A program made the translations under genes and the position numbers. The notes under the pieces are model-generated. The model made no database searches. It saw nothing but the letters and a program-made list of their open reading frames with translations, and was not told the origin of the DNA. Shown here in pieces: positions 21,399-63,847 of a DNA stretch of 64,000 bases. The stretch comes from Dendrophyllia cribrosa. Lineage: Eukaryota > Cnidaria > Anthozoa > Scleractinia > Dendrophylliidae. The stretch is taken from positions 9,620,639 through 9,684,638 of the forward strand of contig JAJLRJ010000006.1 in the NCBI GenBank assembly GCA_024195265.1, in the 5' to 3' direction. Within the stretch, counting starts at the first letter, position 1; every line of letters starts with the position of its first letter.

Positions 21399-21447
21399 GA
21401 TTCAAATAGCTGACGTTTCGAGCGCTAGCCCTTCGTCGGAGCGAATC
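21399..21447 (-). ncRNA. Hammerhead-like ribozyme motif in Penelope-like end
   Basis: Read on the - strand: GATTCGCT (stem I), CCGACGA (box 1), GGGC-UAGC-GCUC (stem II), GAAA, self-complementary ACGU (stem III), then C and AGC...GAATC closing stem I. Metazoan Penelope-like elements are known to carry minimal hammerheads that may act as dimers. Here box 1 has C where the consensus has U4, and one extra A stands before stem II, so activity is doubtful. Confidence 0.6.
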
Positions 21448-21537
21448 AAGGAATTGTGGGTAGTGTGTGGTTTTATATAGTAAGCGGTGGAGCTACGCTA
21501 TTGGTGGAAATTTGGTGACGTGAAAAACAAATGTAGA

Positions 21538-22704: not shown

Positions 22705-22727
22705 GGCGACTCCATTTACTTGTTTAA

Positions 22728-23684
22728 ATTTCCGAAACCTCAGTCGCTTTTCTTGACATTAATATTTCAATCAACGGTAACAGTTTATCCACAAGTGTGC
22801 ACTACAAACCTACAGATTCCCACAGTTATCTGTTACATTCATCCTCACATCCATCGCACGTTAAAAACGCCATTCCGTATTCTCAATTTCTCAGACTTCG
22901 ACGTCTATGTAGTGATGACTCTGATTTTTCCAACAAATCAGAAGAAATGTGCCAGTTTTTCAAGAAACGTGGGTACCCTGACTCTGTTGTTAATACGGGC
23001 CAACAACGTGCACAACAGATCGACAGACAGTCAGCACTACAAACGCCACAGAAGGAAGAGAACGAGAGAATTCCATTCACCCTCACTTTCCACCCACACA
23101 ACAACACAGTCAAAAGCATCATTTTAAAAAATTTCAAATTACTCCAAAACGACCCCGAAACTGGCAGAATTTTTTCACAACCCCCACTAATTTCATTCAA
23201 ACGTGACAAAAACATAGGCAACTTTCTAGTTACGAGCGCACTGAAATCTGACGATGTACCGGGAACTTTCAAATGCACACGCACACGATGTAACACTTGT
23301 CCTTTCATTCACAACGCGGACAAAATAACAGGACCCAAACGATCTATTAAAATCACTGATCGTTTTACATGCACCTCCGTAAATGTTATCTACTGCATTA
23401 CATGTACTTTTTGCAAAAAGATATACATTGGCGAAACAGGGAGGAGACTGGGCGACCGTTTTCGTGAACATCTCCGAGACGTTGAAAAAAATGACAAAGA
23501 CGCATCCAAACCAGTCGCGCGCCATTTTAATCTTACTAACCATTCTAAACAACACATGACAATCTGCGGCCTTTCCCTACACCAGGGTAACACAGAAAGC
23601 CGTAAAAACCTAGAACAAAAAATCATCTTTCAAATCGGCACTCTCAAACCCCACGGAATCAACGAACGCTTTTCATTCAACTAA
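22728..23684 (+). CDS. Second Penelope-like copy, C-terminal part with GIY-YIG
   Basis: It is in frame from about 22728 (SETSVAFLDIN) to the stop at 23684 and matches the C-terminal part of the opposite-strand copy residue for residue as far as I can compare. It has lost YIDD and everything upstream, but keeps the cysteine cluster and the complete GIY-YIG domain. The junction with the other copy falls in AAATTTCC, a short microhomology. Confidence 0.8.
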   Translation: MSETSVAFLDINISINGNSLSTSVHYKPTDSHSYLLHSSSHPSHVKNAIPYSQFLRLRRLCSDDSDFSNKSEEMCQFFKKRGYPDSVVNTGQQRAQQIDRQSALQTPQKEENERIPFTLTFHPHNNTVKSIILKNFKLLQNDPETGRIFSQPPLISFKRDKNIGNFLVTSALKSDDVPGTFKCTRTRCNTCPFIHNADKITGPKRSIKITDRFTCTSVNVIYCITCTFCKKIYIGETGRRLGDRFREHLRDVEKNDKDASKPVARHFNLTNHSKQHMTICGLSLHQGNTESRKNLEQKIIFQIGTLKPHGINERFSFN

Positions 23685-23774
23685 TCTACATTTGTTTTTC
23701 ACGTCACCAAATTTCCACCAATAGCGTAGCTCCACCGCTTACTATATAAAACCACACACTACCCACAATTCCTT

Positions 23775-23823
23775 GATTCGCTCCGACGAAGGGCTAGCGC
23801 TCGAAACGTCAGCTATTTGAATC
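23775..23823 (+). ncRNA. Hammerhead-like ribozyme motif, second copy
   Basis: The same sequence and features as the motif at 21399-21447, on the + strand, downstream of the second Penelope-like coding part. Confidence 0.6.
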
Positions 23824-23928
23824 TTTTTACGGTGGTCAATTTACCTTATCGACTCAGTCGATAAAACTAAATTCTCGTATAACTATAGTTAGTCTGTATT
23901 GTTTCGGATCACCGAGGCGTCAATATTC

Positions 23929-26440: not shown

Positions 26441-28356
26441 TGGTTTATTTGTAAGTGTACAACATTGTAACCTGTGTTAAATGCAAATAAAATATGTTTA
26501 ATTTAAAACAAGAGGCTAAACATAGCCTATACTCATGCGCATGAGACTCTAAGACACGTTAATTGAAGCTACCAATTTTTCTGTAGTCACTTTGAATATT
26601 TAATTTATTGATTCTGATCAAACCCACACTAGTGTAATACTTCCCAAACGTTAACCGTGAATTATTTCTATGACACTGGGTTATTCCAGAAAGAATCCCC
26701 CCCCCCCCCCCCCCCCCCCCCCCCACCGACGGATGGCAAGATTGTTTGACCCCTTCCCCCCTCTCTCCCGCCTGGATTTCCAAGCCGAGAGACCCCTTCT
26801 CCTGCCCGGATTTCTAATAAATTTGTGGAAGCCCTAAATTTACAGGTAATGAAAAAAATACATGTAATCGGTGATGAGTGCTATAAATTGGTGAAACATT
26901 TTAATAAAAATAAATATTGCGTGACACATCATGACCCCCCCCCCCCCCCGTTTGATTTCAAGTCCAAGTCGAAATGAAAATTTTCTTTTAAGCTAGTTCT
27001 TTAAATAACTGCTTTGATTTTGCCATGTATTAGTTTTTTCCAGGCTTCACAGTTTTTTCAAAGTGTTGTCGCAAATACACTTCTTTCATATATGCAAATT
27101 TCGTGTGGAATGTAATTCGATCGTGCGCTGCTTGTACCAAAATATTTGTTCTAAAGGTCAAAACTTTTTAATGAAACTCGTATTTCCTTGAATGAAAATG
27201 TCTTTCCCTTGAATAAAAGAGTTAAACGCTTATCAGAATTCAGTGATTTTCTGCTTCCGGAAGGCTTGGCGATTTATTTATCCTCATTGCAGCGCACAGC
27301 GCTGGCGTCTGCGAATTATATTATAAACATCACAAAGTAATATTTAAATTCAGCAACCTGCTTTATTATATCTAGTGTTTTCTAAAATTTCCGACTTTTC
27401 TTGTGTATATAGAATGCCATTCTTATCCGTAAAGATGATTCGCATAATGTTTTCGCGAATCAAAAAATCTTGAAAGCAAACTTTATTTCAGAAAGCGCTA
27501 TTTAATTCAATTATATTTACTAGTGTGCCTTACCATGATTATTGGATGGCTTCATGAAGAAAACATTCGAACAAGTTTGCGTCTAATGTCCAAACCGTGA
27601 CTGCTTTCTGTTACATTTGAAAAGACTACTTTTAAAAGATCCTTAAAATCAGTAAACGACCGGGTTATTTTTCAATTTTAGCAATTCTCAAAAACTGTAT
27701 TACGCGACAGTCCGTTGACTCTGTGTTTCGGAGTGCACAAAAGCTCACAAAAGCAACTTTTTCTCGGTCTAGAATAACAAGTATGACACAAAGAAAAAGT
27801 CAATCACAAATTGGTATCAACATAAATTCTCACCGAAAAATGAAATTTCTTTTATGGTAAAGTCCTTCGCCTGCTTGAAAATTCTTTAAAACTCCGCTTC
27901 TTCGGATTTGATCGCCCCGCACTGATAAAACTTGAAGCAAGATTTCGTCGCTTACAGCTCTCCTTTTTCTGCACTACAGCGGCTTCTGAGTATTCTTTAA
28001 AGCTTTCTCTTTCCATTTTGAGTATTTTGAATGTGTGTTATTATTCCGACAAGACAAAACCCAAGCACATGCCGAGCGCGGCAGCCATTTTTGTAGAATT
28101 TTTATGTGACCTGCGACTCGGTTAGTAATAATATATGCGTGCATAAATTTGCATGCACTAATGTGACAAAAAGACGAAGAAACGCAACCCATTTTCTACC
28201 TCATGCGCTTACTGCGCATGAGTAATAAAACATGCAAATGCCTCCAAAATTAGAGTAACTTCTCATTGTTCAACTTATTGTTACAACTTGTTTTGGTTGC
28301 GAGAAAGGGTACACAAAATTTAGTGTATTTTGGTCTCGAAAGATACCCCATCATGC
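26441..28356. other. Intergenic or intronic, poly-C tracts and dispersed repeats
   Basis: C runs are at 26697-26724 (28) and 26935-26949 (15). A dispersed repeat (AAACAAGAGGCT..., TAGCCTATACTCATGCGCAT) at about 26508-26551 recurs inverted at about 62284-62330. If the - strand XDH gene is intact, its next exon should lie to the left of 28357, but I did not find one. Confidence 0.5.
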
Positions 28357-30987: not shown

Positions 30988-33900
30988 CTAATCGTCCTCG
31001 TATTCCTGTTTTGCAATGTTCCGGAAAAGTTCATTTGCAATCTCCTTGGCTCGTCGGTTTGGTCCTACTCTCGGGACGAACACTGCAGCCTCAGGGTTTG
31101 GTGTCCACTTAGGATCTTCCCCTCCAATTTCTAAGTTGCACACAAGCTGCAAGGGGCGCTCGACTATGTATCCATTTCCCTGTTTCAGCTTCAATCCACG
31201 CACGGTTCCATCTTTGCCAATGATCTTGCTCACTACTCGTCCCAGCTTCCACAATGCTTTGTCCTTTGCTTCAGTTCTTAACAACACCACTACTCCTGTG
31301 TTTGGTATCTTCTCAACATTCCCTTCAGACCGCTGCTGCCTTTCTTCAAGGGCGTGAACATACTCTTTCATAAACCTCTTTCGTAGGTGCTGTTTGCTTT
31401 TCTCTAAAAATCTCATGCGCTTAGTCACATCCTCTTCTCCTAGATACATGAGTGGCCTGTTGTTCATGGTCATCTCGACGTCCAGCAAGACTTCTTCTAG
31501 TTCCTGGAAGGTTAGCAGACTTTGACCAATCACCTTTGAAAGACTCCTCTTCATGATGCCGATAAGGCGTTCAAAGAAGCCTCCCCACCATGGGGCACGG
31601 GCCAAGTTGAACTTCCATTTTATCTCCAAAGCACCTAAATAGTCTGCGAGACGCTGGTCCTTCTTCAGCTTGGATAACCATTTTCCAGTGGCGACAAACG
31701 TTTTTCCATTATCACTTACAATAATTTGAGGGCAGCCTCTCCTGGCGACAAATTCCTTCAGTGCTCTCTGGAACTCTTGGGCAGTCAGGTCACGACATAA
31801 CTTGAGATGCACTGCACGAGTACTGGCGCAGGTAAATAGTGCTATGTATGCCTTTGAAGTAGAAGTCTTGCTAATCTTGTGATTAACAGGACCAGCAAAA
31901 TCCACTCCTGTAACAGCGAAAGGGCTTGAGAGTTCAGTTCTGAACGCTGGCAAGGTTGCATCTCGGCTGCGAGAGGTTGAGATTGGTTTCTTCCAGTAAC
32001 GCCTGCAAACGTTGCAGTTGCGGATAACTGTTTTGGTTAGCGACCTCAGCTTTGGTATCCAATACTTCTCTCTCATATGACACATGGTAGTTGAAACTCC
32101 CCCATGTAGCATCCGCTCGTGGACTTGCTGAACCATCATGGAAGCCAACTTGCTGTTTCGTGGTAGAAAGATTGGATGATAATGGGGGACTCTACCAACA
32201 CATCTCAATATTCCTTTTGCGTCCTCCCTTAGTCCCACATCTGTCTTGGACACTGTGGTCTGTGCTTGAATGATCCAGAACTTCTCTGCTGCCTGGAGCT
32301 CTTCGGTCATTAGTGGGCCTTTGCACTTCTTGTGGTTTCTGCAGTTGTGGTTAAATCGCTTTACAAATGCAGTGACCCGCAGAAGTTTCCAGTATGACGC
32401 ATACTTGCTCAGAAGAGTGTCTCTGGTCTCATTCATTTCTTCCTTTGTTTTAACTAAGAGTTGTTTTTCGACCTTAGGTTTGACTATTTCCTTGTAATTC
32501 TCTGGGCTCTCTGTCACTTCAGGTTGATCTGGCCATTCTTCTTGAGTACTAAGCCACTTTGGCCCTCGAAACCACAACTCCCCCATTTTGCTTGGGGCCA
32601 CGCCACGGCTTCCTTGATCACTAGGGTTGTCAGCAGTAGGTACATGATGCCATTGTAAATACTTCTTTTCCTGGATAGCCTTGGTTCTGTTACGAACAAA
32701 TTGGGACCAAGTTCCTTGCCCTTTGATCCAATAAAGCACCGTCGTACTGTCGACCCAGCAGTGATACTCCTCAATGCGCTCATCTTTCAAGACTTCCTTT
32801 ACATGGTGCATCAATCTGCTTAGGGTATGTGCTGCAACAAGTTCTAAGCGGGGAATTGACTGATCTTTCGGTGCTATCCTTGACTTTGCTACAAGCAGCC
32901 TCTGTTAAACTGGTGTGGCGGTGTGAGTCGTTACAGCATACACAGCTACTGAAACAGCCAACTTGCTGGCATCTGAGAACCCATGCAAGTTCACTCTGGT
33001 CAAGCCAACACCCACTACACTGCGGGGAATGCTTACATAAGGACAGTGCTTCATATCATTTAGCCACTTAGCCCACGGTTTCCTTATGTCATCTGGTACC
33101 TCTTCATCCCACCTCAGATTTCTCAAGCAAACTTCACTGTACAGTATCTTTCCAACGATAACAACAGGTGCAGCAATTCCAAGTAGGTCAAAGATACTGT
33201 TGATAGCAGACAACATCTTTCTCTTTGTCACTGAGCCCTCCTCAACACCATTTAAGGTCTTTGCAAAGTTAATAGGAAATGTGTCTTCTACCTTGTTCCA
33301 TGGGACTCCTAAGATTTTTGATTCATTTGGCTGAGTTCCAACTGCTAACTTGGCGTATGTTGAATTCTCCTGAGGTTCTTCTTCACTTGTACTCTGATTC
33401 TCAATTTCTGGAATGTTACAGTGCCACTTGTGTAGCTGAAATCCACCTTCGTTCATGATTTGCGTTGCCTCCTCCTTGAAATTCAGTAACTGTTCCTTTC
33501 CATCACCACCAGATTGAACATCATCTACATAGGTATTTTGAAGCAACTCATTTACAGTCTTGGGGTACTTTTCTTCATACTGGCCAATGTGTTTCTCAAG
33601 TGTAGCACCCAGGATGTATGGACTTGGACCCGACCCGAAAATTACTCTTGTGAAGCGGTATTGGACAATGTTCCTTTCTTTTAAGTTGTCATACCACAAT
33701 AGTCGAAGGGCATCTCTATCCTCCGGACTGATTTTGATTTGTAGAAAAGCTTTCTGTATGTCCCCGGTGATGCAGAAAGGTTTCATTCTGTTTCTTAGCA
33801 GGATGTCAAAGATTGCTGGTTGTAAGGGTGGGCCAACCTCCAGACAGTCATTCAATGATGGTGACTGTGGGTTTTGTTTTGCGGAGCAATCGTACACTAT

Positions 33901-36177
33901 CCTCATTTTTGTGGACTGTGCTTCTTCTCTTATCACCGCTTGATGTGGGATGTAGTGAATCACCTCCCCTGAGGGTACTTCAGGTACCAGCTCCAAGATC
34001 CCTTCTTCCAATTGTTGTTCCATAACTGCGTGATACTCTTCAAGTTTCTGCATCCTTTCCAGCTTTCGGGTAGTGCTTTGCAACCTTTTTAAGGTCAGTC
34101 CTTTGTTCGGTGGCAAGGAGGCTGGCTGATGTGACTTCCATGGTAACCGTGTTATATATGTTCCATCATCCAATCGTTGCAGCTGATTTTTGAAATCTTC
34201 ATGGAACAAACCTTGCTCAACAGGCTCATCTGTTAGCCCTAGGACTTCCTGCGAACACATCTGTTTGAATTCGTCTTGGCTTGACTTCAAAAAGAAACCC
34301 TTCTCAGTCTCAGTTCCAGACAACATTGACTTTCCTGTGATTGTCCAACCCAGCATAGTGAACTCTGCTCCTGGATCAGTGTCTGGATGTTTGCCCAGAA
34401 CAGCAGGCTCGGTTGTTTTAATCCGCTGTATATCTGCAGCCCCCAGGATAACATGCACTGGCAGGTTATCATCTGTTACTGTTTCTTCAGTAAAGTTTGG
34501 TCTCCTTATTCGATGATTGGCTTTCTTCAATTCTGCAATTCTTGGGTTAGGAAGGTGAGTTAGGACTGGTTTTTCTGCATTAATGCAATGTAGCTCAAAT
34601 CCAAACCCCTCAACAACATTTGACTCAACATTGACCTTATAGATCTCAACATCCCTGTTGACTGTTCCGTACATTTGCTCAATAATCCTTCTTTCAGTTT
34701 TGTATGGTTTCAGGTTCAGTTCAGTGAGTAAATTTGAGCTGATGTAAGAGCTTCCAGCTCCACTATCCAACATGATTCGAGCCTGTACTCCATTAATCTT
34801 AGCGATGACAGTTGCATGCAAAGTAGTTTGGGTATCCACCACACCATAAAACCGCTCCGACCTGCCTGAAGACCCAGGGTTGGGTTGGTGAAAAAGTGTG
34901 CTCTTCATCTTGTTACAAACAGAGGTATGGTGCCTCCCATTGCACTTCCCACACCCTCGTGATTTACATTTGGAAGCCACATGCCCAGGCCGGGCACAAT
35001 TGAAACACAACCTGTTCCTTGTTAAATGCTCCTTTCTGCTGGCAATATCTAAGACCTTGGTACAATCACTGCTACGATGGTTCTTTAAACCACAGTAAAC
35101 ACAGGGTGGAAGCCCTTGCGACTGCTTTGGGGTTCCCCCAAACATCAGCAATTTGTCTTCTCCTTTTGGGCGACCGTCTTGGTTCCCAGGTACAGTATCA
35201 CTTGTTGTGGGTGGGCCGGATTCCACTAAGGATAAGGGGTTTCGGTCTGTGTACTTTCTTAGATTGTCAACTAGCTCCTCAAGTCCCCATTCTTCCCAGT
35301 TATCATCCTTTTGAGCCATAACCTCTCTAACAGGACCCAATTTATCCATTATGCTGTACACATAACTTTGGGCACCCTCCAGTTTCTTCATTGTTGCTAA
35401 GGTTCGAACTGTTTTGGACAACTGTGTGTGAAACTCATGTATTTCTTTGATTTTGTGCGTACTGGTGATGTTTGGCAAGGCTTCCAAATCCTTGATTAAG
35501 GCCTTATGGACCTTAATGTCCTTTCCAAAGGTTAGTTCTAGAATTTTCTTGGCTTCATTATAGCCTTCAGGGGTGTGCGGCAGCCCCAGAATGTGATCTT
35601 TCGGTTCCCCTTCGACTAATTCAAGTAAGTAATTAAATTTACTTATCTCAGAAATCTTTGAGCTGTCTGCTTCCACAACAAACTGATTCCAGAATCTAAG
35701 CCAGTCCTTGCAATCCCCCTTGAATGGTGATATGGTGTACTTCTGCAACTTCACTGCTTGAGGTTTGGCCTCTTGTTGCTCAGCCTTCTTCTTTTCCAAT
35801 TCCATTTCGAGCTCAATCTTCTTCTTGAACCAATCCTCCTCCCGTTTGTGCAGCTCTTGTTTTTCCAATTCTCTCAATTCATCCTTAAGTCTCCTTCTCA
35901 ATTCGTGTATAGGTACTAAATCCTCCTTGTGAGCATCTGACCAGCCCTTCACATCTGCAAATAATTTTTCGGCCTCCAACATGGCGTCCTTGACAAGATT
36001 TGCCGAAGCTTCCACGGTTTTGCTGATATCACATATTTTCTCGTAAGCTGATGATACGTCCTCTTTCACACCGAAATCGACCGTTTCCTTGATCTCATTG
36101 ACGTAGTAGGTTGCTCTGTTAAGTTCCTTCGTGTAGCGCTGTTCTGCGAGTTCCACCATGTTTGTATAAATTTCCAC
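30988..36177 (-). CDS. BEL/Pao gag-pol polyprotein with one internal stop
   Basis: The frame is open from 36177 to 32908, has one in-frame TAA at 32905-32907, and continues in the same frame to 30988. Part 1 (1090 aa): a coiled-coil gag to about residue 145, a gag homology region about 146-290, zinc knuckles at C359-C372, C391-C404 and C409-C421, protease DSG at 471-473, RT with GDIQKAF at 805-811 and YVDD at 883-886. Part 2: the end of RNase H (WVDSTTVLYWI), the HHCC zinc region (HGGVSTTMCH, CNVCRRYW), and the integrase core with GVDFAGP and VSDNGKTF. The final part resembles the DUF5641 tail of BEL elements. The stop falls in RNase H, so full polyprotein would need readthrough; otherwise the copy is dead. 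Confidence 0.9.
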
Positions 36178-42119: not shown

Positions 42120-42653
42120 GCAGTTTGAGTGAAATTTGATCCTCGCAGTGCGCTATCAACTTAAACACGGACCCGCGCTATGAAAGGAACCTTGGCCTGG
42201 CCAATGCAAACCGCCAGTCATTTCACACTTGACACCGAACTGTCAACATCACGTGCATCCTCTCGCCAATGGAGAACCGTTACCGGCGCGAAATTCAAAT
42301 TTGGCAAGCTAAAATATTATATTCATGCTAAAAGGCGCATAAATTCAAATAATGTTTTTAGTTTTATTTTCGTGAAAGATAAATCCTATACAAGATTGAA
42401 CTGGTGAAGGTAGAATTAGACTTATTTTGGGGGGCAACGGTCTTCCTCCGTGTTGTTCGCAGTGTCAGCCATCTTTGATTAGCCGTTGAAGCAGTGATGG
42501 TGTGACAAAAGGGGGCGGAGCTATCCCTTTTATAGCTTGGGTCCGTGTTTAAGAAGTTGAAAAGCAACCTGAAAAAAATTCAGGCTTGAACGGGATTCGA
42601 ACCCATGACCTTGCAATACCGGTGCAATGCTCTACCCACTGAGCTACCAAGCA
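42120..42653 (-). repeat. tRNA-derived SINE, split by a TTAA element
   Basis: The tRNA-like part (about 42584-42653, - strand) has box A GAGCATTGCAC context and box B GGGTTCGAATCCCG. CCTGAAAAAAATTCAGG adjoins it at the 3' side. The tail (ATCCTCGCAGTGCGCTATCAA) is separated by the element at 42165-42548. It is the same family as the units at 48.1-59.1 kb. Confidence 0.75.
42165..42548. mobile_element. TTAA-flanked MITE in SINE tail
   Basis: ACACGGACCC...GGGTCCGTGT inverted ends, extending to GCTATRAAAGG with mismatches, are bounded by TTAA (42161-42164 and 42549-42552). It lies at the SINE's TTAA, the same position used by the pair at 55253-58945. Confidence 0.8.
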
Positions 42654-45175: not shown

Positions 45176-45769
45176 AGGGGGAGGGGGTACTCCCTATAAT
45201 GGGCTATACGGGGATGCTCCGCCCGAAAGGGGTACCTTTTTGAGGTTGGAGGTATATGAAAGGGTCGGGATTTCACGAGTTGAAGTATATGAAAGGGCAT
45301 GGTTTTCACGAAGAATAGGAAAGGGTAGCGAAAAGACGAGTTGAAGCATAAAAAAGGTAGGGAAAACTGCCATTCAAGTATTATAAAAAGGGCCTTTCAA
45401 AATATATCAAAAAGACGCACGTAAAGGCTATATGAAAGGGGTACCATTTTCAATGAAAGGTATATGAAAGGGGTGCCATTTTCAATGAAAGGTATATGAA
45501 AGGGGTACCATTTTTAATGAAAGGTATATGAAAGGGGTGCCATTTTCAATGAAAGGTATATGAAAGGGGTACCATTTTTAATGAAAGGTATATGAAAGAG
45601 ATACCATTTTCAATGAAGGGTATATGAAAGGGGTACCATTTTCAATGAAAGGTATATGAAAGGGGTACCTTTCCTGTCAAAAACGATATATGAAAGGGTA
45701 AGGGTTTGAACCTCGGGGCGGAGCATCCCCGTACAAAACTTTGTTGAGTACTCCCCCCCCCCCCCCCCC
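45176..45769. repeat. 32-bp minisatellite inside an inverted-repeat element
   Basis: Units reading TATATGAAAGGGGTACCATT plus TTCAATGAAAGG repeat about eight times from 45429, preceded by looser versions from 45250. The block is bounded by inverted GGGGATGCTCCGCCC (45210) and GGGCGGAGCATCCCC (45716), then GAGTACTCCC and a 17-base C run. A similar GAGTAC plus 24-C terminus stands at 46331-46359. Confidence 0.8.
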
Positions 45770-45977: not shown

Positions 45978-46664
45978 ATGACCGCTGACCGTTCCCTGTG
46001 ACCGTTCCCTGTGCAGATTTCGTAGAAATTGCGTAACTTTCAATAGCCCATTTTTTGAAATGTTATTTCTCTGTTTGTTCGACTTATACATAAAAATACG
46101 ACAATTCTGCTTCTACTCAAATCAGCAACATAATTCCTTCGATTTCAAACAGAAGATAAAGCCACGATAGACAATTTCTTGATTCACTATCTTATGAAGC
46201 TTTCGTGCGTTCGAAATATTATACCTCGTTCTAGGAAACGTCTCTAAAATGGATACCCGTTCGTTCTAGATCAGGAGTCCCAAAATTACGACTCCGTTAG
46301 GCGACGCATACCCGAACAGGTATTTTTGGGGAGTACCCCCCCCCCCCCCCCCCCCCCCCTTCCCAAACGGGATGCAGCCTTCCTGTGGGCATGAAAATAC
46401 ATTGCATGGATGTTGGTGGTTCAGCACTGTTTTCCTTGTCATCGGACGTGGCTGTTAAGACTGTAACTTGCGGTGGAGATATCACAGAAACAGCTTTAAA
46501 CCCACCAGCCGAAAACAAAACTGACAGCCAGCTGTAGCTCGCATCTGTAATAGTATCACAATTCTCAGATACTTTTGCTTGCTTTTGAGACGTCAATATA
46601 AAGTCGCATTGACGTCTCAAAAATCTAGACAATGTTTAATCGTGATACAAAATAATTTCGATTT

Positions 46665-47936: not shown

Positions 47937-48267
47937 TGAGCCATTGTCAACAACATTTGAACAGTAGAATATAGTTATACACCAGTGCAAATATTTTGCT
48001 CCAGTTCAAATATTTTGCACTGGTTCAAAATAAATTTGAACCAGTGCAGACAAAATTGCACCAAAATCATAATTTCACTACAACATAGATAATCGTGAAA
48101 TGATATATATGAAATAAATCATATATGAACTGCGGAAATGAAATCAAATGAAGAATGATCCTCGCAGTTAAGTCAGTATGAACGCAATTTAAGCAATTGC
48201 GAAAAGAAGCCTGAAAAAAATTCAGGACTTCAACGGGGTTCGAACCCGTGACCTCGCGATACCGGTG

Positions 48268-48288
48268 CAATGCTCTACCAACTGAGCT
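48268..48288. repeat. Target-site duplication of the LINE, left
   Basis: A 21-bp sequence from CAATGCTCTACC to TGAGCT, identical to 55077-55097. It covers the box A region of the SINE's tRNA part. Confidence 0.92.
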
Positions 48289-48299
48289 TTTTTTTTTTA

Positions 48300-48967
48300 T
48301 TTCTGGCGTTCCGCAGGGCGGTAGTGCAATGCCCCGCGATCATGTAAAACGGGGGGATAAAAACGAGGAAGAGGAGAACGCCAGGGTGAGGGAGCACCAG
48401 CTCGCCAAACTCGCTAGGGAATCGAACCCCACCTCACCGGGAATCTAAAAAGCAGAGCACCAGCAACTACCTACGTAACTAGACTATATACGTAAAAAAG
48501 GAGGTAAAACAATTGGATAAGACAACTAAAAAAACAGTTAAAATTAAATAAAACATACTAAAAGCCAAGTGGTACAAACTAAGAAGAAACACGTACAATG
48601 CTTATGTAAGGAAAACCCGGGAAGAGGTTCGAGCAGTACAACCAACTAAGGCGACCGCACTAGCCAGGACCAGAAAACAACGCCGTGACGAGACCCAGAC
48701 CACACAAAAGGATCACGCAGTACAACCACTAAAGGCGACCACGATCACCAGAAACAACAAAAACAAGCCGGAACAAGGACAGCAAAGGGTCACGCAGTGC
48801 AACCAATCAAGGCGACCACGATCACCGGAACAAGAAAAGCAGGGGGGATCATGCAGTGCAACCAATGAAGGCGACCGCAATCACCCAAGGCAGTAGGGGA
48901 ATAAGTAGAGACCGGAATAAGCAGAGAAAGAGGAGGGATCACGCAGTACAACCGAGATAGGACACAG
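48300..48967 (-). repeat. LINE 3' UTR with degenerate repeats
   Basis: The + strand shows CACGCAGTACAACCA or a variant followed by AAGGCGACCACGATCACC near 48627, 48714, 48791, 48848 and 48940, with irregular spacing of about 60-90 bp. 3' UTR repeats can serve RT recognition in non-LTR elements; that role is inferred here. Confidence 0.65.
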
Positions 48968-49692
48968 TCACAGACAAACAGAAAAAGTCTCGTCACACAC
49001 CGTACCAACTAAGCCCAGAGCGCCCCACTGGCGTGCAAAAAAACGGCGACGCTGGGCAGATTGAAAACGCTTGAAAAAAACAGGTAAGAAGAAAGAAACC
49101 CTGGCTCTAAACTGGGCCAGCAACCTAGGGCCTGAGGGTCGCACGTCGCGGAAACGAAAATCATTCCGCTGCTTCCAGACCAGAAATTTCAAGACATTCA
49201 ACAAATACGCAAAAACAAGAGGAACGCAACGGAAGTCATCAGAGGAAAAGCCAAACAACATAACCTTGGCATCAATAGGGGGAGCCAAGGAGGAAGCAGC
49301 GGACAACAACGTCTGAACACGGGCAATGCCCTGCTGGATAAAAGGGCACGAAAAGAAAAGGTGCTCTAAAGACTCGTTGCCAGAACCACAAAAACAAACA
49401 GGATCAAAATTGTAACCAAAAGAAATCAAACGGTCCGCAGTAAAAAGAACCCCGTGGGCAACCTGCCAATTCACATCAAAGACATGACGGTCAAGCGGCA
49501 TGCACGAAAGACTAGACCACGTAGAAAGCCAATCAACATTACCATAAATAGGAAGAAACTTGGATATACACCTAGGAACACACGCCAAAGAAGAGAGATA
49601 CGACACGTAAACCACCTTAGAGGTGATGGTCTCCACCGGCAAAGGCCCAGATGGAAATGAGGCACCAACAGCTAAGCCGGAAGTGAGAGCCA

Positions 49693-49723
<31 letters not shown>

Positions 49724-52492
49724 CAGAAAACGCCACGCGTAGAACAGAGAGCGATAAAACGAAGGAAAAACGTCAGGTGAAAAGAAAGAAGGATTAGCAA
49801 AGACGACAGAGGGACCCACACCATAACGATCAAAACACCAATACGTCAAAAGAGAGACCCAACCACCAGGCGAAACACGATACCGCTTGACCCATTGTAC
49901 AAGTAAAGCAAACATTTTAACCTCTACGGAAACCATGGAGAGACCTCCACGAAGACGGGGGTGGATTACGATGTTACGAGCAACCTTATCAGATTTCCCA
50001 CCCCAAAGAAAAGAAAAGGCCAGCTTATCAAGCTGCAGGCGGACCCACGGGGGCATCCCCACCAGAGACCCCACATACCAAACTTTAGAGAGAGCCAGGG
50101 CATTAATGACAAGGGCCTTGCCTTGGAAGGACAACACACGATGACGCCAAAAATTTAAAACCCGCCGCACGGCCTCAATACGGGGCAACCAATTTGCTTC
50201 ATCCACATCACTATTACCAATAAAAACCCCCAGCACTTTTATCTTGGAGTCTGTCCACTGGATGGCAACAGGGGCATCGGAGCGACCGCGCCACCCACCC
50301 AACCACAACCCTTCACACTTCTCCAGATTTAGCTTAGCGCCAGAACCCTTTTCGAAATCTTCGTACACATCAAAGACAGAGACTAAGGCAAGGTCGGAAA
50401 GAACGATAACAGAGGTATCATCGGCATATAGGGACAGAACAGGGAGGGGCCGTGGCACACGAGGGAGGGAAAGACCAACAATATATGGATTGGCCCTAAT
50501 ATTGGCCGCCAAAACCTCCATGGATAGTACATAAAGGAGGGGAGATAGGGGGCACCCCTGCCTCACACCGCGAGAAGGTTTAAGCCGGTCCGAGGTATAA
50601 CCATTGACCAAAACCGCACTAGAAATGTCAGTGTAAAGCAGCCGAATCCAACGGACAAAGTCCGGGCCAAAACCCAGGTGTGCCAAAACCGCAAAAAGAA
50701 AATCCCAGTCTACTCGATCGAATGCCTTTTCCTGATCTAGGGCCAAGATGGCGGCACAGCAACCCGTCTCCTTAGTATATTCCACCACATCCCGAAGTAA
50801 AGCCACATTCTCCCCGATATACCGCCCCTTGACCCCGCACGTCTGATCCGGAGCCACCACCAACTGAAGAACCTTCAACAGACGACCAGCCAGAGCCCGA
50901 GCACACATCTTGTAATCTGAATTTAGCAGACTAATAGGCCGCCAATTCCTGTGAAGAAGACGGTCCCCCTTCTTAAAAATTAAAGAGATCAGAGCCAGCC
51001 GCTGCGACGGAGAAAGAAGCCCGGAGGCGAAGGATGCATTGAAGACCTCAACAAGGTCGTCACCAAGAACGTCCCAAAAGGTAAGATAGAACTCAGGGGG
51101 GAGCCCGTCAGAACCAGGGGCTTTCCCTTTGGCCATCCCTCGAAGAGCAAGCAAAACTTCTTGGTTCGATAAGAGACCCTCGCACAGGGGAACCTGGTCG
51201 GGGGGGAGACGAGCAGTGAGATTGTCCAAAAGACGGGACTGAACTTCAGAGTCGGTAGCAGAAGCAGTAAACAGCGACGAATAGAAACCGCGCCAAGAAT
51301 CCAGGATATCATTCAGATTAGTCACCGTGGTACCTTCAGACAAACGCATGGCCGAGATCCAGGACTCAGCCCCCCTTTTCTTCTCCGAACGTAAAAAGAA
51401 TTTGGACGAGGACTCACCCTCCTCAGCCCACTGGATGCGAGAACGAACCCTGGCCCCCTCGGCCGCAATTTGATCAATAGATGCCAATTGAGTGAGAGTG
51501 GACTCATAGACGCCAAACAAATGGGAAGCCCCATTGTCAATTTGTTTTTTCAAATGCGAAGCCAAATTGGTCAGCAACAATTTGCGTTGCTCCCTTCCTT
51601 GTGCCAAGCGACGACAATGTTGTACAGCAATACCCCTGATCTTTTCCTTCCCGCGGTCCCACCAGGTAGCAACCGACGAGAAGGAGGCCTTCTTACTACG
51701 CCAGTGGGACCAAAACTCCTTCACAGCCACCACAAAGTCAGAATCACATAAAACAGAACAATTTAGCTTCCAACGTCCAGGACCACGCGGAAGAAAGGAA
51801 GGCGGGGGACACACAAAAACAACGGCTGAATGGTCAGAGAAAGGACAGGGAACTATAGAGGAGGACTGGGCCGAGGCCAACCAAGAGGTGGGACAACCAA
51901 AGAGATCAATGCGGCTGGAGACAGAACCATTCCATCTCATCCAGGAATAGCCTCTCTGGGTGGGATTAAGATGACGCCAGATATCCGTAATACAGCAGTA
52001 CCTGAAAAGAGCCCTCAACGAAGCACAACTGTCATGGGAATGGTCCAAAGGGTTCGAACCACGACGGTCAATAGAACGGTTAAAAACGGCATTAAAGTCT
52101 CCTCCCACCACCGTGGGGACTGCAGGATCAACCATATCCTCAACGTAAGCATAGAAATCCTCCCTCTCCGGGTTACGATTGGGAGCGTAAACAGACGCCA
52201 CCCGAAAAACAACATCCCGACATTCAAATTCTGCAAGTACGAAACGCCCCTCCCTATCGGCCCAAGAGTTGACTAATCGGACCTGAGGGCGAAAGAGGAT
52301 GACCGTACCGCACGCATGGGCCGACCCAGGCGAAGAGACAACTTGATAGCCCGCCGCTGAAAACCATGCCGACCCCTCCGCGCAAGACAAGACATGCGTC
52401 TCCTGTAGACAAACAAAATCGGCCCGCAGACCGAGCAGCCATTGAATGAAAGGAGCCCTTTTACTGGCATCACGGATGCCATTAGTATTCAC
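48968..52492 (-). CDS. LINE ORF2: APE endonuclease, reverse transcriptase, zinc motif
   Basis: 1174 residues, open throughout. The endonuclease has N at 4, QETH at 30-33, GGDFNAV at 130-136, SRIDLF at 193-198 and SDHSAV at 219-224. The RT has PGSDGLPPEF from 459, FDRVDW from 591, RQGCPLSP from 644 and YADD at 689-692. A cysteine-histidine motif, CFCGSGNESLEHLFFSC, spans residues 1033-1049. It would nick target DNA and copy its RNA at the nick. A 28-base C run (49693-49720) encodes most of a ten-Gly tract at 924-933 between the RT and the zinc motif, and it keeps the frame. The order and motifs fit the L1/Tx1 group. Confidence 0.93.
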
Positions 52493-52531
52493 CGTTACAA
52501 AATTGAATTTACCAATTGGGGGCCAAAATAA

Positions 52532-54226
52532 CTACGACGACGCACCCAAATGGGCCCTAGAAGCACGCCGGGCCCTCTGTGGCCGAGGGGGCACATTGGG
52601 TTTAATGGCATGTTTAACACGGGAACCGATCTTTTTGAATTTGTCAGAGAGGCCACGCTCCTCGTAAGCCTCCCCCACTTCAGAAACAATACAGGAGGGC
52701 TGAGCAGGCCCAGAGCCCTCCGACTCCTCCATCAATTCTGGACTTTCAATTTGGCCAACTACAGCATCCTGGGCAACAACACTATCAGCAATTTGGGCAA
52801 CATCATTTGCAACATTTTGGTCAACTACATTATTTTGCACGTTACTTAATATACTTTGACTATTTCCACTACTTTCAACATTATTCTCATTAAGAAGTAA
52901 ATTTCCACTTTCATTGTTTACAACTTCATTAGTATTACTTCCATAACTTTCATTATTTCCATTGTTTACGCTTATTACACTGTTTGCAGTGCTCACTACA
53001 TTACTTTCAATATTTACAGTACTCACTGTATCACTTTCAATGTTTACACTAACATTACGTTCACTATGAACAGTATTTACAACATTACTTTCACTGCTTA
53101 CAGCGCTCGCTGTACCACTATCGCTAATTACATTATTGATAGGAGTTTGGGCGCTACTCCCCTGCACAGTGCCACTGTCAACATCACGTTCAACAATTCT
53201 AACATTGACAATCACCCGGGTGTCATTGGGGTCACTGGTGGCGTCCCCCTCCGCACCCGCCAAAAACCCCTGACTATTTAGCACACCACCATGCGCATAC
53301 TCAAAAATTACCACCCTGTTACTGGGATCGCTTGTGGCATCCCCCGCTATCGCAGTTTGCGCCTGCACCTGACTATTCAAAACAACCTCAGCCGACGCCG
53401 CGGGCCCAGAGGAGTCCTCAAACTGGCCCGCATCAGCTCCCTCCACCCCTACACCCTCTACACCCTCAACACCCTCCATATCTTCCACCACACCCTCAAC
53501 CGACTCCGCAGCAGCCTCGCCGGTGGAAAGTGGTACTCTCGCAGCGTCACCGGGCTCAGATCCAGGGGGAACAGACCCAGCACCCTCACCCGGCAGAGAG
53601 GGAAACTGGGCCTCATCAGGATAATGGACTTGAACATCCAAGACATTCCATGGGTTGGGACAATTACGCGCGAAGTGCCCCTCCTGATGGCAGCGCCGAC
53701 AGCGGTCCTTATTAGGACAGTTAGCTGATTTATGCCCTTGGACAGCGCAGAGATTGCAGACTAGCGGCTGGCCGCGATACCATAGGCGGCAGAGATACCC
53801 GTCAACAGTAACCTGACGCGGTGGAGTCGATTCCAGGGCGATCGACACCAACCGCGTCCCCGTGTAAATATTCGGGCAGGAGACATAAGCCTGTTTTTTG
53901 ACCCGCTTAACGTCCCCATAGCTTGCGAGAACCTCCTTAAGAACTGCATCCGATTCCTCGAAAGGATAATCAAATATATGAATCATGGTGAGAGGGGGCT
54001 CCCCGCCAAGAATCGGGCACCATAGACCAAAAAGACGCACCCCTGCTTGTTCCTTCGCCACTTTAAAGTCATCCTCTAACCGGAATGTGACCCGAATGAC
54101 TTCAAAGGCGACTTGCACGCATTCAACACCCTTAAAAACCTTCAGAATTTCTTTCAAGATATCTTCTTTGGTGTTGCCGCTCAATTTTCGGCCGCACTGC
54201 ACGTTAAGCGTGCGAGGAAGACGCAT
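52532..54226 (-). CDS. LINE ORF1: RNA-binding protein with two CCHC knuckles
   Basis: I start at the Met at 54226 (MRLPRTLNVQCG), giving 564 residues. The frame is open for 118 codons further upstream, but that part is Phe-rich low-complexity translation of repeated GCGCGCGAA-type 5' UTR sequence. Residues 60-150 look RRM-like. Two zinc knuckles follow: C157-C160-H165-C170 and C176-C179-H184-C189. The C-terminal half is rich in Asn, Ser and Val with repeated SNVVNTV-like motifs. ORF1 proteins of this group coat the element RNA. Confidence 0.88.
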   Translation of the reverse strand: MRLPRTLNVQCGRKLSGNTKEDILKEILKVFKGVECVQVAFEVIRVTFRLEDDFKVAKEQAGVRLFGLWCPILGGEPPLTMIHIFDYPFEESDAVLKEVLASYGDVKRVKKQAYVSCPNIYTGTRLVSIALESTPPRQVTVDGYLCRLWYRGQPLVCNLCAVQGHKSANCPNKDRCRRCHQEGHFARNCPNPWNVLDVQVHYPDEAQFPSLPGEGAGSVPPGSEPGDAARVPLSTGEAAAESVEGVVEDMEGVEGVEGVGVEGADAGQFEDSSGPAASAEVVLNSQVQAQTAIAGDATSDPSNRVVIFEYAHGGVLNSQGFLAGAEGDATSDPNDTRVIVNVRIVERDVDSGTVQGSSAQTPINNVISDSGTASAVSSESNVVNTVHSERNVSVNIESDTVSTVNIESNVVSTANSVISVNNGNNESYGSNTNEVVNNESGNLLLNENNVESSGNSQSILSNVQNNVVDQNVANDVAQIADSVVAQDAVVGQIESPELMEESEGSGPAQPSCIVSEVGEAYEERGLSDKFKKIGSRVKHAIKPNVPPRPQRARRASRAHLGASS

Positions 54227-55076
54227 AATAGCAAATAAGAGAAATAAATAAATAAACAAAGGCCAAAAAGACCCGAGAAAAAAAAAAAAAACAAAAAAAA
54301 AAACACGCGAGAAAAGGCGCGCGAAGCACGCCCGAAAAAAACCCGAATACACGCGAGGAAAAAGGCGCGCGAAACACGCCCCAAGCCGCGAATGCGAAAA
54401 AAGAAGCCGAAATAAGCCGACGAAAAAACAGCGGGCCGAAGAGAAAATAAACCACAATAACAAAGTGTTATTGCAGTACAAAAATATGGAAAACAATAAC
54501 CAGAGGTTATCAGTGATAATTGCGAAAATTAAGAAAACAACAAAAGCCAAGCGCTTTTGATATAAACACACAAAGCACAATAGCCAAGCTAAAAGTGCTA
54601 ATTACAAACTAATATAACAATAACGGCCAAAGTGCAAATTACAAAGTTAAACCACAAGTTGCAAAACAGAATATTTAATGGCCCGAACGAAAATCCAAAT
54701 CCCCCAAAAACACACTCAATTTAGGGCCAAAACCCAAACCAAAACGATACCAAAAAGAAAAAAAAACACACCACCCAAGTATCGAAAACGAAACCCCAAG
54801 AAAACCCGAAAAAAAGCCCCAAAACCACACCCGAAAGCCCCGAACAGAAACAACAAAGGGAAACAAAGAAAATAACACCACGGATCTCAACTAAACCACC
54901 CGAAAAGTTTTGAACCCAAAAAACAACCAGAAAAACCGCAAAATCCAGAAACAAAAACACCAGCTAAGGAACACGAACCCTTAGCTGAAAGAATATAGGA
55001 AAATTTAGGACTTACTGCCTCGATTAGCGCAAGAAATAGCCGAAAGAGACACAGCTCCAAAAGACGTGTCTATTCC
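54227..55076 (-). other. LINE 5' UTR
   Basis: It lies between the duplication and ORF1. It has purine-rich + strand sequence, repeated GGCGCGCGAA motifs (54314-54372) and no conserved ORF. An internal promoter would be expected here but cannot be identified. Confidence 0.6.
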
Positions 55077-55097
55077 CAATGCTCTACCAACTGAGCT
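55077..55097. repeat. Target-site duplication of the LINE, right
   Basis: Identical to 48268-48288. The SINE tRNA part resumes immediately after it. Confidence 0.92.
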
Positions 55098-55252
55098 ATG
55101 TAGCCACTGACGTTGGGAGCGGGTCAATTGTAGGTTCATATGTTCCCGTGAAAGGAGTGAATGTGAAATGATACATATGAAATAAATCATATATGAACTG
55201 CGGAAATAAAATCAAATGAAAAATGATCCTCGCAGTTATGAACGCAATTTAA

Positions 55253-57049
55253 GGTGACTCGACCCAGTTTTTGGGGGGGTTACCATCCTACTTTGAATCT
55301 ATCTGGTATCCACACCTTTACTTTTATCATAAGTCTAACACATAGAATGGATAACATATAGATCAATCTACAATATAATATAAAATATTTGGCGATCGGA
55401 GTAAATGTCACGTGGTTATAATGCCACGCCCCTTCGAGGTCTGAGTCGAAAATCTGCTGTTACACATAGTGCGCATTAATGCCTTGCGCTTAGCAGAATT
55501 TCACCAACATCGCAAAGACCCAATTCGAGAAATTCAGTGGTTTCCAAATTTAGGTCATAATTTAAGCGAAAATGATAAGCAAACTTTACACGATTATATC
55601 TAATAAACTATGAGACTTATCCCTTTATTTTGGGGATCGTTATAACAGATGAGTCCTTGCAAGTCAGCAAAAAGCTTTAGGGCCTTGTAAATGCGCGCGA
55701 TTTCGAGCAAAGGAAACATATAGAAATTATAGTTTTAGCTATTTGTTGACGTTTGTCAGCGTTTAAGAGTCCTTCTCACGAAAAAAGCATTTTCTTAAAA
55801 ATTCGTAGTTTTTTTTTCCTTCAAAATTTTCAGGGCCACAATTGATTAACTAACTGCCCGGATTCTGAATTTCATGGTCATTGAAAAACTGTGACATTAT
55901 CTTCTATAAGCCCAAAGTTGAGTAAACATTGAAGATTTTTAGCGTTTTGGCTGAGTTTGTGCTCTGGGAGTTGTCTATTGTTTCTAGTCTGTCATTATAC
56001 AGCATTCTTGTTCAGCACGCGTGCAATGACTACGCTTGGCTGACTTCCGAATGCTCACCGAGATATGGTAATTTTGGTACGGCCTGAGACAGGCGATCGC
56101 GTGATACATCATAGAGGTTTAACGCATGATTTTTAATCAATTCTCGGCATGATGTACACTCCTGGCTGCAGACGTTATGTGACGGGAATCCCTTCTATTT
56201 TTTCATACTAATTACCATATCTCGGTGAGCATTCGGAAGTCAGCCAAGCGTAGTCATTGCACGCGTGCTGAACAAGAATGCTGTATAATGACAGACTAGA
56301 AACAATAGACAACTCCCAGAGCACAAACTCAGCCAAAACGCTAAAAATCTTCAATGTTTACTCAACTTTGGGCTTATAGAAGATAATGTCACAGTTTTTC
56401 AATGACCATGAAATTCAGAATCCGGGCAGTTAGTTAATCAATTGTGGCCCTGAAAAATTTGAAGGAAAAAAAAACTACGAATTTTTTTTCGTGAGAAGGA
56501 CTCTTAAACGCTGACAAACGTCAACAAATAGCTAAAACTATAATTTCTATATGTTTCCTTTGCTCGAAATCGCGCGCATTTACAAGGCCCTAAAGCTTTT
56601 TGCTGACTTGCAAGGACTCATCTGTTATAACGATCCCCAAAATAAAGGGATAAGTCTCATAGTTTATTAGATATAATCGTGTAAAGTTTGCTTATCATTT
56701 TCGCTTAAATTATGACCTAAATTTGGAAACCACTGAATTTCTCGAATTGTGTCTTTGCGATGTTGGCGAAACTCTGCTCAGCGCAAGGCACTAATGCGCA
56801 CTATGTGTAGCCGAGAGATTTCCACGAAAAAATGCCGGTAACAGCAGATTTTCGACTCAGACCTCAAAGGGGCGTGGCATTATAACCACGTGACATTTAC
56901 TCCGATCGCCAAATATTTTATATTATATTGTAGATTGATCTATATGTTATCCATTCTATGTGATAGACTAATGATAAAAGTAAAGGTGGGGATACCAGAG
57001 AGCTTCAAAGTAGGATGATACCCCCCCAAAAAAACTGGGTCGAGTCACC
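55253..57049. mobile_element. 1.8-kb near-perfect palindrome flanked by TTAA
   Basis: GGTGACTCGACCCAG starts the element and its complement ends it. TTAA stands at 55249-55252 and 57050-57053. Arms 55253-56074 and 56211-57049 match along their length with few differences and an indel or two. The unpaired centre is about 136 bp. No ORF of note; it is a non-autonomous foldback of TTAA type. Confidence 0.88.
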
Positions 57050-57053
57050 TTAA

Positions 57054-58945: not shown

Positions 58946-58982
58946 TTAAGCAATTGCGAAAAGAAACCTGAAAAAAATTCAG

Positions 58983-59033
58983 GACTTCAACGGGGTTCGA
59001 ACCCGTGACCTCGCGATACCGGTGCGATGCTCT

Positions 59034-59054
<21 letters not shown>
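58983..59054 (-). repeat. tRNA-like head of a SINE unit
   Basis: GGCTTC/GAAGTC acceptor pairing, box A TAGCTCAGTTGGTAGAGC, a loop CCGGTAT (anticodon position GGT), and box B GGGTTCGAACCCC. Position 33 is C instead of U, one anticodon-stem pair is mismatched, and a SINE tail follows, so it is unlikely to be a functional tRNA. Confidence 0.75.
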
Positions 59055-59513: not shown

Positions 59514-60668
59514 ACCTTTAAGATCAGTAGAGGTAAAGTGGCACTGGTTGCACCAACCTCGTTCCCAGGGTTTTCCCTTTTTTAAATTTGGAGTAACGAG
59601 GTTGTGGTTGCACGAGTTCTCCAGTACACTCGTGGCGATCATTCTTGCATCCCACGAGACACCCAAGAGTCGTTACGAGGAAACGAGTTCCAGTGCAAGC
59701 AACTCGGATTCGCAATGAAGTGATTCAGAAGTGGAATCGGATGCGGGCTTTATTGAACACTGCTTCGAGGTCATGTTTGTTCCAGACATGGATGTCCACC
59801 AAGTAAACATGTAGTATTGCGCATGCTGTGTATCCTCGTCTGGAACAAACATTACCTCGTAGCAATAACAGGTGGGTGTATATTAAGAAAATGCTGGGTA
59901 TATGTATATAAAAGGTGTGTGAAGGGGGAGGGGGGGGGGGGGGGGGGGGGGGGTCATAGAAAATTTCTGACTGATCAGAGGAGGGGGGGGGGGGACAATA
60001 ACTAAATTCAGTCCTTTAGAAGGGGGGTCTTACCTAATATTTTCCTACTTGAAGCCCATTTTCCAACCTCCCCCCCCCCCTCCTGATAATTATTGCACAG
60101 TCCCTTAAGTTGCCATTGAATTTTAAAAAGGCCGGATTCTTCTGTTGCGACATATCCTGATGGAAAGACACCACGGCCACGAATGTTGGCAAATAAGGCG
60201 TCAACATCATAAAAATTTGCTGCGATACTATCTTCTGTGGCACTGGAAAAGACACCAGCCGGCCTGCTTTAAAAATAGTGTAAGCCTGAAATGGAAAATG
60301 AATGCATACGGTCTGTTGCTCCGGTTCACTTAAAAAAGTGCAGGACCCAAACGACGTTTATCAACTCAGTTTTTATATTTTTATATTGGGGGCATGCAAT
60401 CAAGAAATTAAAAATAATCAACGAAGCATGTATGACTTTTAAAATCCGAAAGATAACGTTGTTTTGACAATGCCCCCACCCCCGGGCGAACCTGTTTTAG
60501 CAATTGCCCCACCCTTGGGAGGGAAAAGTTATAAAATGCCCTGGGGTGGGGGGGGGGGGGGGGGGGGGGGGGGGAGGGGGTGAGCGAGCTTGGAATTGAC
60601 GGAGCCATAACCAGTCTTGCGTTTATGAATGGTGACAATTATGGTGTAAATATTATTTAAATTTTAAG
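59514..60668. other. G-tracts and dispersed repeat, no gene seen
   Basis: G runs at 59930-59953 (24) and 60548-60574 (27). A repeat at about 60055-60107 matches 43017-43060 inverted. The first exon of the XDH gene should be at or left of this stretch but I did not find it. Confidence 0.5.
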
Positions 60669-63827: not shown

Positions 63828-63847
63828 GGGGGGGGGGGGGGGGGGGG
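63828..63847. repeat. Poly-G tract
   Basis: A run of 20 G. Comparable C or G runs of 15 or more lie at 16264-16283, 26697-26724, 26935-26949, 45753-45769, 46336-46359, 49693-49720, 59930-59953 and 60548-60574. Confidence 0.9.

Follow-up and report, generated by a model that had tools for sequence, protein, structure and literature searches.

A coral LINE very probably specific for the box A of tRNA genes and tRNA-derived SINEs

Keno and Dewa belong to the Tx1 clade of long interspersed nuclear elements (LINEs), in which CCHC zinc knuckles are typical of the first open reading frame (ORF1). Here we describe a LINE of the Tx1/L1 group that interrupts the box A of a tRNA-like repeat in the coral Dendrophyllia cribrosa, within a stretch of 64,000 nucleotides that we call the window (assembly GCA_024195265.1, contig JAJLRJ010000006.1, positions 9,620,639 to 9,684,638). 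Keno inserts in U2 small nuclear RNA (snRNA) genes, and target-specific elements of the Tx1 clade have been described (PMC4640811). The zebrafish element Dewa inserts in the tRNA-Leu spacer (PMC3706591); going by that description, it resembles our LINE in being tied to tRNA genes, and differs in lying in a spacer and not inside the gene. Other non-LTR (long terminal repeat) elements are also specific for tRNA genes: NeSL-1_TV for tRNA-Pro, LIN15_SM for tRNA-Arg and LIN25_SM for tRNA-Glu (PMC4640811). Unlike our element, these are NeSL-related, have a restriction-like endonuclease, and are each described from a single isotype, not from box A across isotypes. Zebrafish Mutsu inserts in 5S rRNA genes, and the Dada transposons also use fixed internal sites of tRNA and snRNA genes, but they are DNA transposons with target-site duplications (TSDs) of 6-7 bp (PMC3706591).

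For the events at the 5′ end, the closest parallels are R2 and the melanogaster-type R1. An annealing model has been argued for both, in which RNA with upstream target sequence is proposed to anneal at the new site. In R2, RNA cleavage upstream in the 28S sequence goes with uniform 5′ junctions (PMC3774820), and R1 junctions have a TSD followed by extra upstream 28S sequence (PMC2718515).

Thus, site-specific LINEs of small-RNA genes are already known; what is new here is a target that is a promoter module, with visible carry-over of target sequence. The published small-RNA-gene LINEs that we found are each described from a single gene; what the targets here have in common is a short promoter element. 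We found no LINE specific for box A across tRNA kinds in the literature searched, which covers few subscription journals, and a Repbase entry may exist.

Our conclusion is that the window holds a young L1/Tx1-group LINE that is very probably directed to one site, the box A (D arm), in tRNA genes and in tRNA-derived short interspersed nuclear elements (SINEs), and that carries target-like sequence at its 5′ end. When the two flanks of the LINE are joined, they restore a tRNA-Thr(GGT)-like fold with box A GCTCAGTTGGTAGAGC, and the 21-mer AGCTCAGTTGGTAGAGCATTG found on both sides is the D arm of this repeat, box A included. The initial annotation had placed the insertion in the box A region of a tRNA-derived repeat, and it was right.

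To evaluate the target across the genome (627,238,274 bases in 22 contigs), copies were collected with the terminal 400 bp of the 3′ untranslated region (UTR) as the query. There were 46 matches, and 40 of 73 first-look candidates were scored, which makes the counts a lower bound. At least 28 copies genome-wide, that of the window among them, have 97-100% identity in the 3′ end. A 99% piece (C1:21647042-21647219) was dropped before this count as part of the rearranged copy of L044. Of the 28 flanks that of L036 is masked and was left out, so that 27 readable flanks remain. Our strict rule asks for at most two mismatches to GCTCAGTNGG, read in the same orientation and beginning with base one or two behind the tail. 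It is passed by 26 of the 27 flanks, and by about 0.1% of 200,000 random positions; the remaining flank (L020) is a degenerate site with three mismatches. Under a looser rule (box A plus a downstream B-box-like motif, with at most three mismatches each), a box A of tRNA type follows the A tail in 29 of the 29 readable flanks of 30 loci (L015-L044); this rule is also passed by 5.6% of random positions, drawn from a pool rich in tRNA-like DNA. Thus, most copies share a single position within a multicopy sequence, and we do not see the dispersed insertion without fixed target of a non-specific L1.

The targets are of several kinds. ARAGORN finds a tRNA fold in the joined flanks of 13 of the 17 copies with two ends, and makes no call in four; nine are Thr(GGT)-like, two Lys(CTT), one Ile(GAT) and one Ser(AGA). 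On the joined flanks ARAGORN identifies tRNA-Lys as the target in L016 and L027, and tRNA-Ile in L018; by eye, L026 is Ala-like, and L029 is Tyr-like with an intron. Rfam reports a tRNA directly after the tail, from model position 6-9, in L016, L018, L026, L029 and L044. In all these tRNA-like kinds the insertion lies at one position, before nucleotide 9 or 10, in the same orientation and within the D arm; U2 snRNA, the tRNA-Leu spacer and 5S rRNA are not the site of this subfamily. Because Lys, Ile, Ala and Tyr tRNA sequences are hit besides SINEs, the site is box A itself and not one repeat. The suggestion of a tRNA- or SINE-targeting lineage, to be checked on the 3′ flanks of copies collected by their 3′ UTR, is therefore borne out, most copies being followed by box A in the same orientation. 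The narrower suggestion that a SINE promoter is the landing site holds for box A and is too narrow as to SINEs.

A second subfamily, whose copies are 78-84% alike in the 3′ UTR, provided 12 flanks (L043, L066-L074, L081-L082). Rfam reports tRNA targets in L069, L070 (Asp) and L071 (Glu), with isotypes assigned by eye, and L073 (C17:23990708-23990828) lies within a 5S rRNA gene (54.7 bits). This last copy is the one likeness to Mutsu, as that element is described; the subfamily of the window does not target 5S rRNA. By eye only, L043 is tRNA-Ile-like and L081 and L082 are tRNA-Asp-like; Rfam is silent on the last two at E-values up to 1. The wider lineage thus leans to genes of RNA polymerase III (pol III), and is not strict. 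In a second distant lineage (L084) the likeness ends after 140 bases, before its 3′ end, and five places with diverged ORF2 (C17:23351281, C19:29592813, C2:9955310, C19:30266941 and C21:23333291) stayed outside the reading of flanks.

It is possible, if on balance rather unlikely, that the target is chosen by tethering to pol III factors (TFIIIC or TFIIIB on the gene), and that the endonuclease only fixes the final position. The common target is indeed a pol III box A, and the relatives in tRNA-Asp, tRNA-Glu and 5S rRNA by Rfam, and in the tRNA-Ile-like L043 by eye, all sit in pol III genes of differing sequence. But the tRNA position is constant to within a nucleotide or two, and degenerate copies of the target are hit too (L020, L032). 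Moreover, TRE5-A, for which guidance by proteins of the host is described, lands in the neighborhood of tRNA genes, at a distance and with no fixed internal position (PMC3706591).

The 5′ side was evaluated at 21 loci (L045-L065), of which 17 have both ends (two of these, L047 and L052, with internal deletions). We observe GAGCATTG at the 5′ junction in all 17 copies, whatever the target reads. The target itself reads GAGCATTG in only 5 of the 17, and in the other 12 it reads GAGCATCG, GAGCATGA, GAGCGTGG, AGCATCCG, GAGCGGAG or AATGTTTT. Being constant despite differing targets, GAGCATTG travels with the element. It is preceded by 13 nt of box A that are the same as those of the local target in 11 of the 17 copies; six of these 11 have the common AGCTCAGTTGGTA and are uninformative. 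The informative copies number 11, and in six of them (L046, L048, L049, L051, L053, L064) the upstream 13-mer is unlike their own target. The variant of L051 is that of L047, which lies near it in a FastTree tree (branch support was not tested); the variant of L064 is carried by no neighbor in the tree. A genome-wide search for the 5′ end of the element (up to three mismatches) finds 23, and the 17 of them preceded by box A and GAGCATTG are the same 17 copies. Constant GAGCATTG and non-local box A together suggest that the element RNA brings target sequence along, and that this sequence anneals at the next insertion site.

The other six of the 23 ends are those of L075-L080. Among them, L075-L078 form a sister group with a junction where AGCTCAGTT meets GGGAATAG. 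In L075, the clearest case, the local SINE ends in GGTAGCTCAGTGG and is followed by CTTCATAGCTCAGTT and then by the element; this CTTCATAGCTCAGTT is the 5′ half of another SINE type, as found in L076 and L077. The junctions of R1, with their extra upstream target sequence after the TSD, resemble that of L075. L080, the other end of the masked L036, has a 5′ half that is tRNA-Lys-like by eye. Of the four incomplete copies, two that are 5′-truncated show TSDs: 13-16 bp in L056 (AGCTCAAATGGTA with as many as three further bases that could come from either side) and 7-10 bp in L060, where the range again reflects junction bases of either origin.

We consider it improbable that these mosaic junctions arose only once the element was in place, through gene conversion or through recombination among the copies. 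The tRNA-like repeats are numerous and could convert one another: GCTCAGTTGGTAGAGC has 436 exact matches in the genome (242 + 194), and its reversed control has none. However, what stands immediately before box A agrees with the local tRNA in the majority of copies (the 13 folds out of 17), conversion would not make GAGCATTG uniform, and the copies are young, with 7-43 differences to the nearest neighbors listed over 4711 gap-free columns. More doubtful still is that the 21-bp repeat is an ordinary TSD with nothing carried over. It is perfect in the copy of the window and in L055, and a local 13-mer stands upstream in 5 of the 11 informative copies. Against this, GAGCATTG stands upstream in 17/17 while 12/17 targets differ, and box A is non-local in six informative copies; the junction of L075 speaks against it as well. 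A plain 21-bp TSD is refuted for the family; the window copy alone cannot tell. The perfect 21-bp duplication proposed at first is thus real as a pair of identical 21-mers (about 0.001 random exact pairs of this length would be expected in the window), and is better described as a shorter TSD plus the element-borne GAGCATTG, which forms the final 8 nt of the 5′ copy. Finally, that an L1-like element without target choice landed in the SINE by chance has next to no probability and is refuted by what the other copies have in their flanks: a single insertion in the window, where tRNA heads make up about 0.3% of the sequence, would prove nothing, but the window copy and 26 others (one at a degenerate site) lie at the same tRNA position, versus 0.1% in the control.

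In placing the element among known LINEs, we observe that an apurinic-type endonuclease (APE) and a reverse transcriptase (RT) share one ORF2 (Pfam PF03372, PF00078 and PF13966), as in the Tx1/L1 group, and that ORF1 carries CCHC knuckles, as in the Tx1 clade. The best relative of ORF2 among solved proteins is the ORF2 of human L1 (E-value 4e-72), and R2 is far weaker (2e-17). Protein searches contributed the best 120 matches listed of 2567, of 120 and of 1500 relatives, without genomic context. The RT tree has 74 sequences: 67 chosen from 240 listed relatives of ORF2, the window element, five loci, and human L1 as the root (L006 was dropped). Together, the relatives of the window element and the relatives of L002 make up a 69-member clade (support 1.0) that leaves out human L1, L001, L003, L004 and L005.

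L002 is one of six distant contaminant contigs found in searches of viral and genome contigs, in which no close relative of the LINE appeared; pattern scans of the viral contigs for an A tail with box A, and for the SINE tail, found none. The contig of L002 is filed under the metagenome-assembled genome of a bacterial symbiont and is probably host contamination. Because a U2 snRNA gene follows the LINE there (Rfam, L002 3497-3678), we marked it as Keno-like. It has the same APE-type endonuclease, L1-like RT, A-rich tail, and fixed site in a multicopy small-RNA gene as the window element, and it differs from it in its target (U2) and in sequence (about 42% identity in the RT columns).

We propose the following mechanism. 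The endonuclease would nick the template strand ahead of nucleotide 9 or 10 of the tRNA, and the A tail would be reverse-transcribed from the nick by target priming. A cut in the other strand would follow about 7-16 nt further downstream; L062, the clearest copy, points to 13 nt. The element RNA would start in the upstream tRNA half of the previous site, and the end of the cDNA, with its RNA-derived box A, would anneal to box A in the new target and prime the second strand. The expected outcome is uniform full-length insertions, and the annealing model explains why so many of the copies are complete at the 5′ end. R2 and R1 differ from our element in having 28S rDNA as target and in belonging to other clades; moreover, no hepatitis delta virus (HDV)-like ribozyme was found at the 5′ end of the window element (Rfam, window 54200-55200, E-values up to 10), where a diverged ribozyme is possible.

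Several observations weigh against a strict box A specificity with carry-over. On the 3′ side, the tails of L019, L020, L032, L038 and L043 draw no Rfam match at the gathering score, and the tRNA nature of these loci rests on the motif or on the eye; 5 of the 12 copies of the second subfamily (L066, L067, L068, L072, L074) have no recognized target in about 110 bp; and a lineage 58% identical (L083) is not at box A, the sequence after its A-rich tail being unrecognized by Rfam. On the 5′ side, the five informative copies L047, L052, L055, L057 and L062 match their local 13-mer, as a plain TSD would, one of the 23 5′ ends (L079, whose 3′ side is not seen) has no box A, and L050 and L065 are rearranged. 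The RT tree has a single U2-inserted anchor, which is identified by its target, and human L1 was set as the root. And we infer the position of the nick, the start of transcription and the annealing all from sequence.

If box A specificity is correct, the LINE has a wide choice of landing sites, box A being common to many tRNA genes and to SINEs, and its fate is bound up with that of pol III genes and SINEs. Tentatively, we may think of it as a promoter-module LINE, whose target-derived 5′ leader, renewed at each jump, would be both part of the promoter for the next RNA and annealing arm for integration, whose ORF2 would be translated past, or by restarting at, an in-frame TAG, and for which SINEs would be a safe harbor; if true, the tRNA-headed SINEs would be a large one. 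The varied tRNA targets expose carried-over sequence, which the uniform rDNA of R1 and R2 shows less easily. Since carry-over is visible here, annealing as the origin of the 5′ junction can be tested directly. For the makers of RNA-templated gene insertion tools, a nuclease with box A as its recognition site would be of interest too.

The coordinates of the element and its surroundings are given in Table 1. On its own strand the element has a 5′ UTR of about 850 nt, ORF1, ORF2, a 3′ UTR and an A tail. The initial annotation had described a full-length element with an A tail and both ORFs open. The limits 48289-55076, the tail and the open ORF1 stand. Both ends are present, but the 5′ UTR is about 54 nt shorter than in the 16 other two-ended copies. 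The ORF2 frame is also open, but an ATG comes no earlier than codon 120 (numbering from the GTG at 52492), and the frame lacks the Met start found at or near one place in most of the relatives listed. ORF1 and ORF2 are in one frame, separated by a single TAG, and this arrangement without ORF2 ATG is common to all 17 two-ended copies (in L053 the position of the TAG is a sense codon). A loss of the ORF2 start in the window copy only is thus rejected; since the family has the same junction, the missing start is no defect of that copy alone. ORF1 exceeds 500 amino acids (aa) in 12 of the 17, and ORF2 1100 aa in 8. Read-through or restart are the options for the translation of ORF2.

Table 1. Features of the LINE and its target repeat, and homopolymer runs, in window coordinates
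Feature	Position	Strand	Remark
LINE body as first delimited	48289-55076	-	about 6.8 kb
Identical flanking 21-mers	48268-48288 and 55077-55097		sequence AGCTCAGTTGGTAGAGCATTG
3′ flank, box A/D arm of target repeat	48268-48288	-	
Probably duplicated part, AGCTCAGTTGGTA	48276-48288	-	48268-48275 is the target continuing
Interrupted tRNA-like head, 3′ part	48225-48288	-	Rfam tRNA match 48232-48290
Interrupted tRNA-like sequence, 5′ acceptor half	55098-55105	-	
Upstream 13-nt box A copy	55085-55097	-	target-derived or carried over
GAGCATTG, element-borne 5′ end	55077-55084	-	constant in 17/17 two-ended copies
A tail	48288-48298	-	10-11 nt; one A could equally be target
Predicted hairpin just 5′ of the element 3′ end	48312-48338	-	z -1.8
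18-nt motif, five repeats, 3′ UTR	48626-48953	-	
ORF2 frame	48968-52531	-	open from ORF1 stop; 1174 aa from GTG at 52492
zf-RVT C-terminal zinc-binding domain (PF13966)	49331-49471	-	Pfam
Poly-G tract inside ORF2	49693-49720	-	28 nt
Reverse transcriptase domain, RVT_1 (PF00078)	50225-50974	-	Pfam
Apurinic-type endonuclease domain, Exo_endo_phos (PF03372)	51830-52489	-	Pfam
ORF1	52532-54226	-	564 aa; terminal TAG 52532-52534
CCHC zinc knuckles of ORF1	53654-53764	-	
Missing 5′ UTR point of window copy	54620-54621	-	about 54 nt absent
Further tRNA-Thr(GGT)-like copy	42582-42653	-	
Further tRNA-Thr(GGT)-like copy	58982-59053	-	closest empty-site homologue in window
C/G runs	16264-16283, 26697-26724, 26935-26949, 45753-45769, 46336-46359, 49693-49720, 59930-59953, 60548-60574, 63828-63847		

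In the tRNA-like head the acceptor stem pairs well, and position 33 is a C, for which reason the head looks like that of a SINE and not like a working tRNA. Presumably the repeat is akin to a SINE common in corals. A 3′ tail common to SINE and LINE gave no BLAST match within the window. A search of published text with words of the SINE sequence returned only an unrelated bacterial match, and tRNA is not mentioned in the available part of a paper on coral miniature inverted-repeat transposable elements (PMC2872659). Near the 3′ end of the LINE, the predicted hairpin is not significant alone, as 11 of 200 shuffles fold equally well; a stretch of 49 columns at this end is 82% alike in the 58%-identical relative.

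The poly-G segment of ORF2 differs between copies (7-32 nt in the 15 of 21 loci measured, the six without a match to the tract being left out), and the window copy has the longest tract. The window as a whole has nine C/G runs of at least 14 nt versus one A run and no T run.

Other repeats share the window. A foldback element with long inverted arms (55249-57053) cuts into the SINE that adjoins the LINE, and is piggyBac-like by its TTAA ends (55249-55252, 57050-57053). A perfect inverted repeat at 21344-23878, with arms of 1153 nt spaced by 229 nt, is probably a Penelope-like element; an ORF inside it has a GIY-YIG match just below the Pfam cut-off. The region 30988-36177 holds the frames of a BEL/Pao-type LTR retrotransposon (Peptidase_A17, RVT_1 and an integrase zinc-binding domain). 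Elsewhere in the genome, at C3:19669270-19687082, box A 16-mers are spaced at 70 bp and form two sets of four, which may point to tRNA-like sequences arrayed in tandem.

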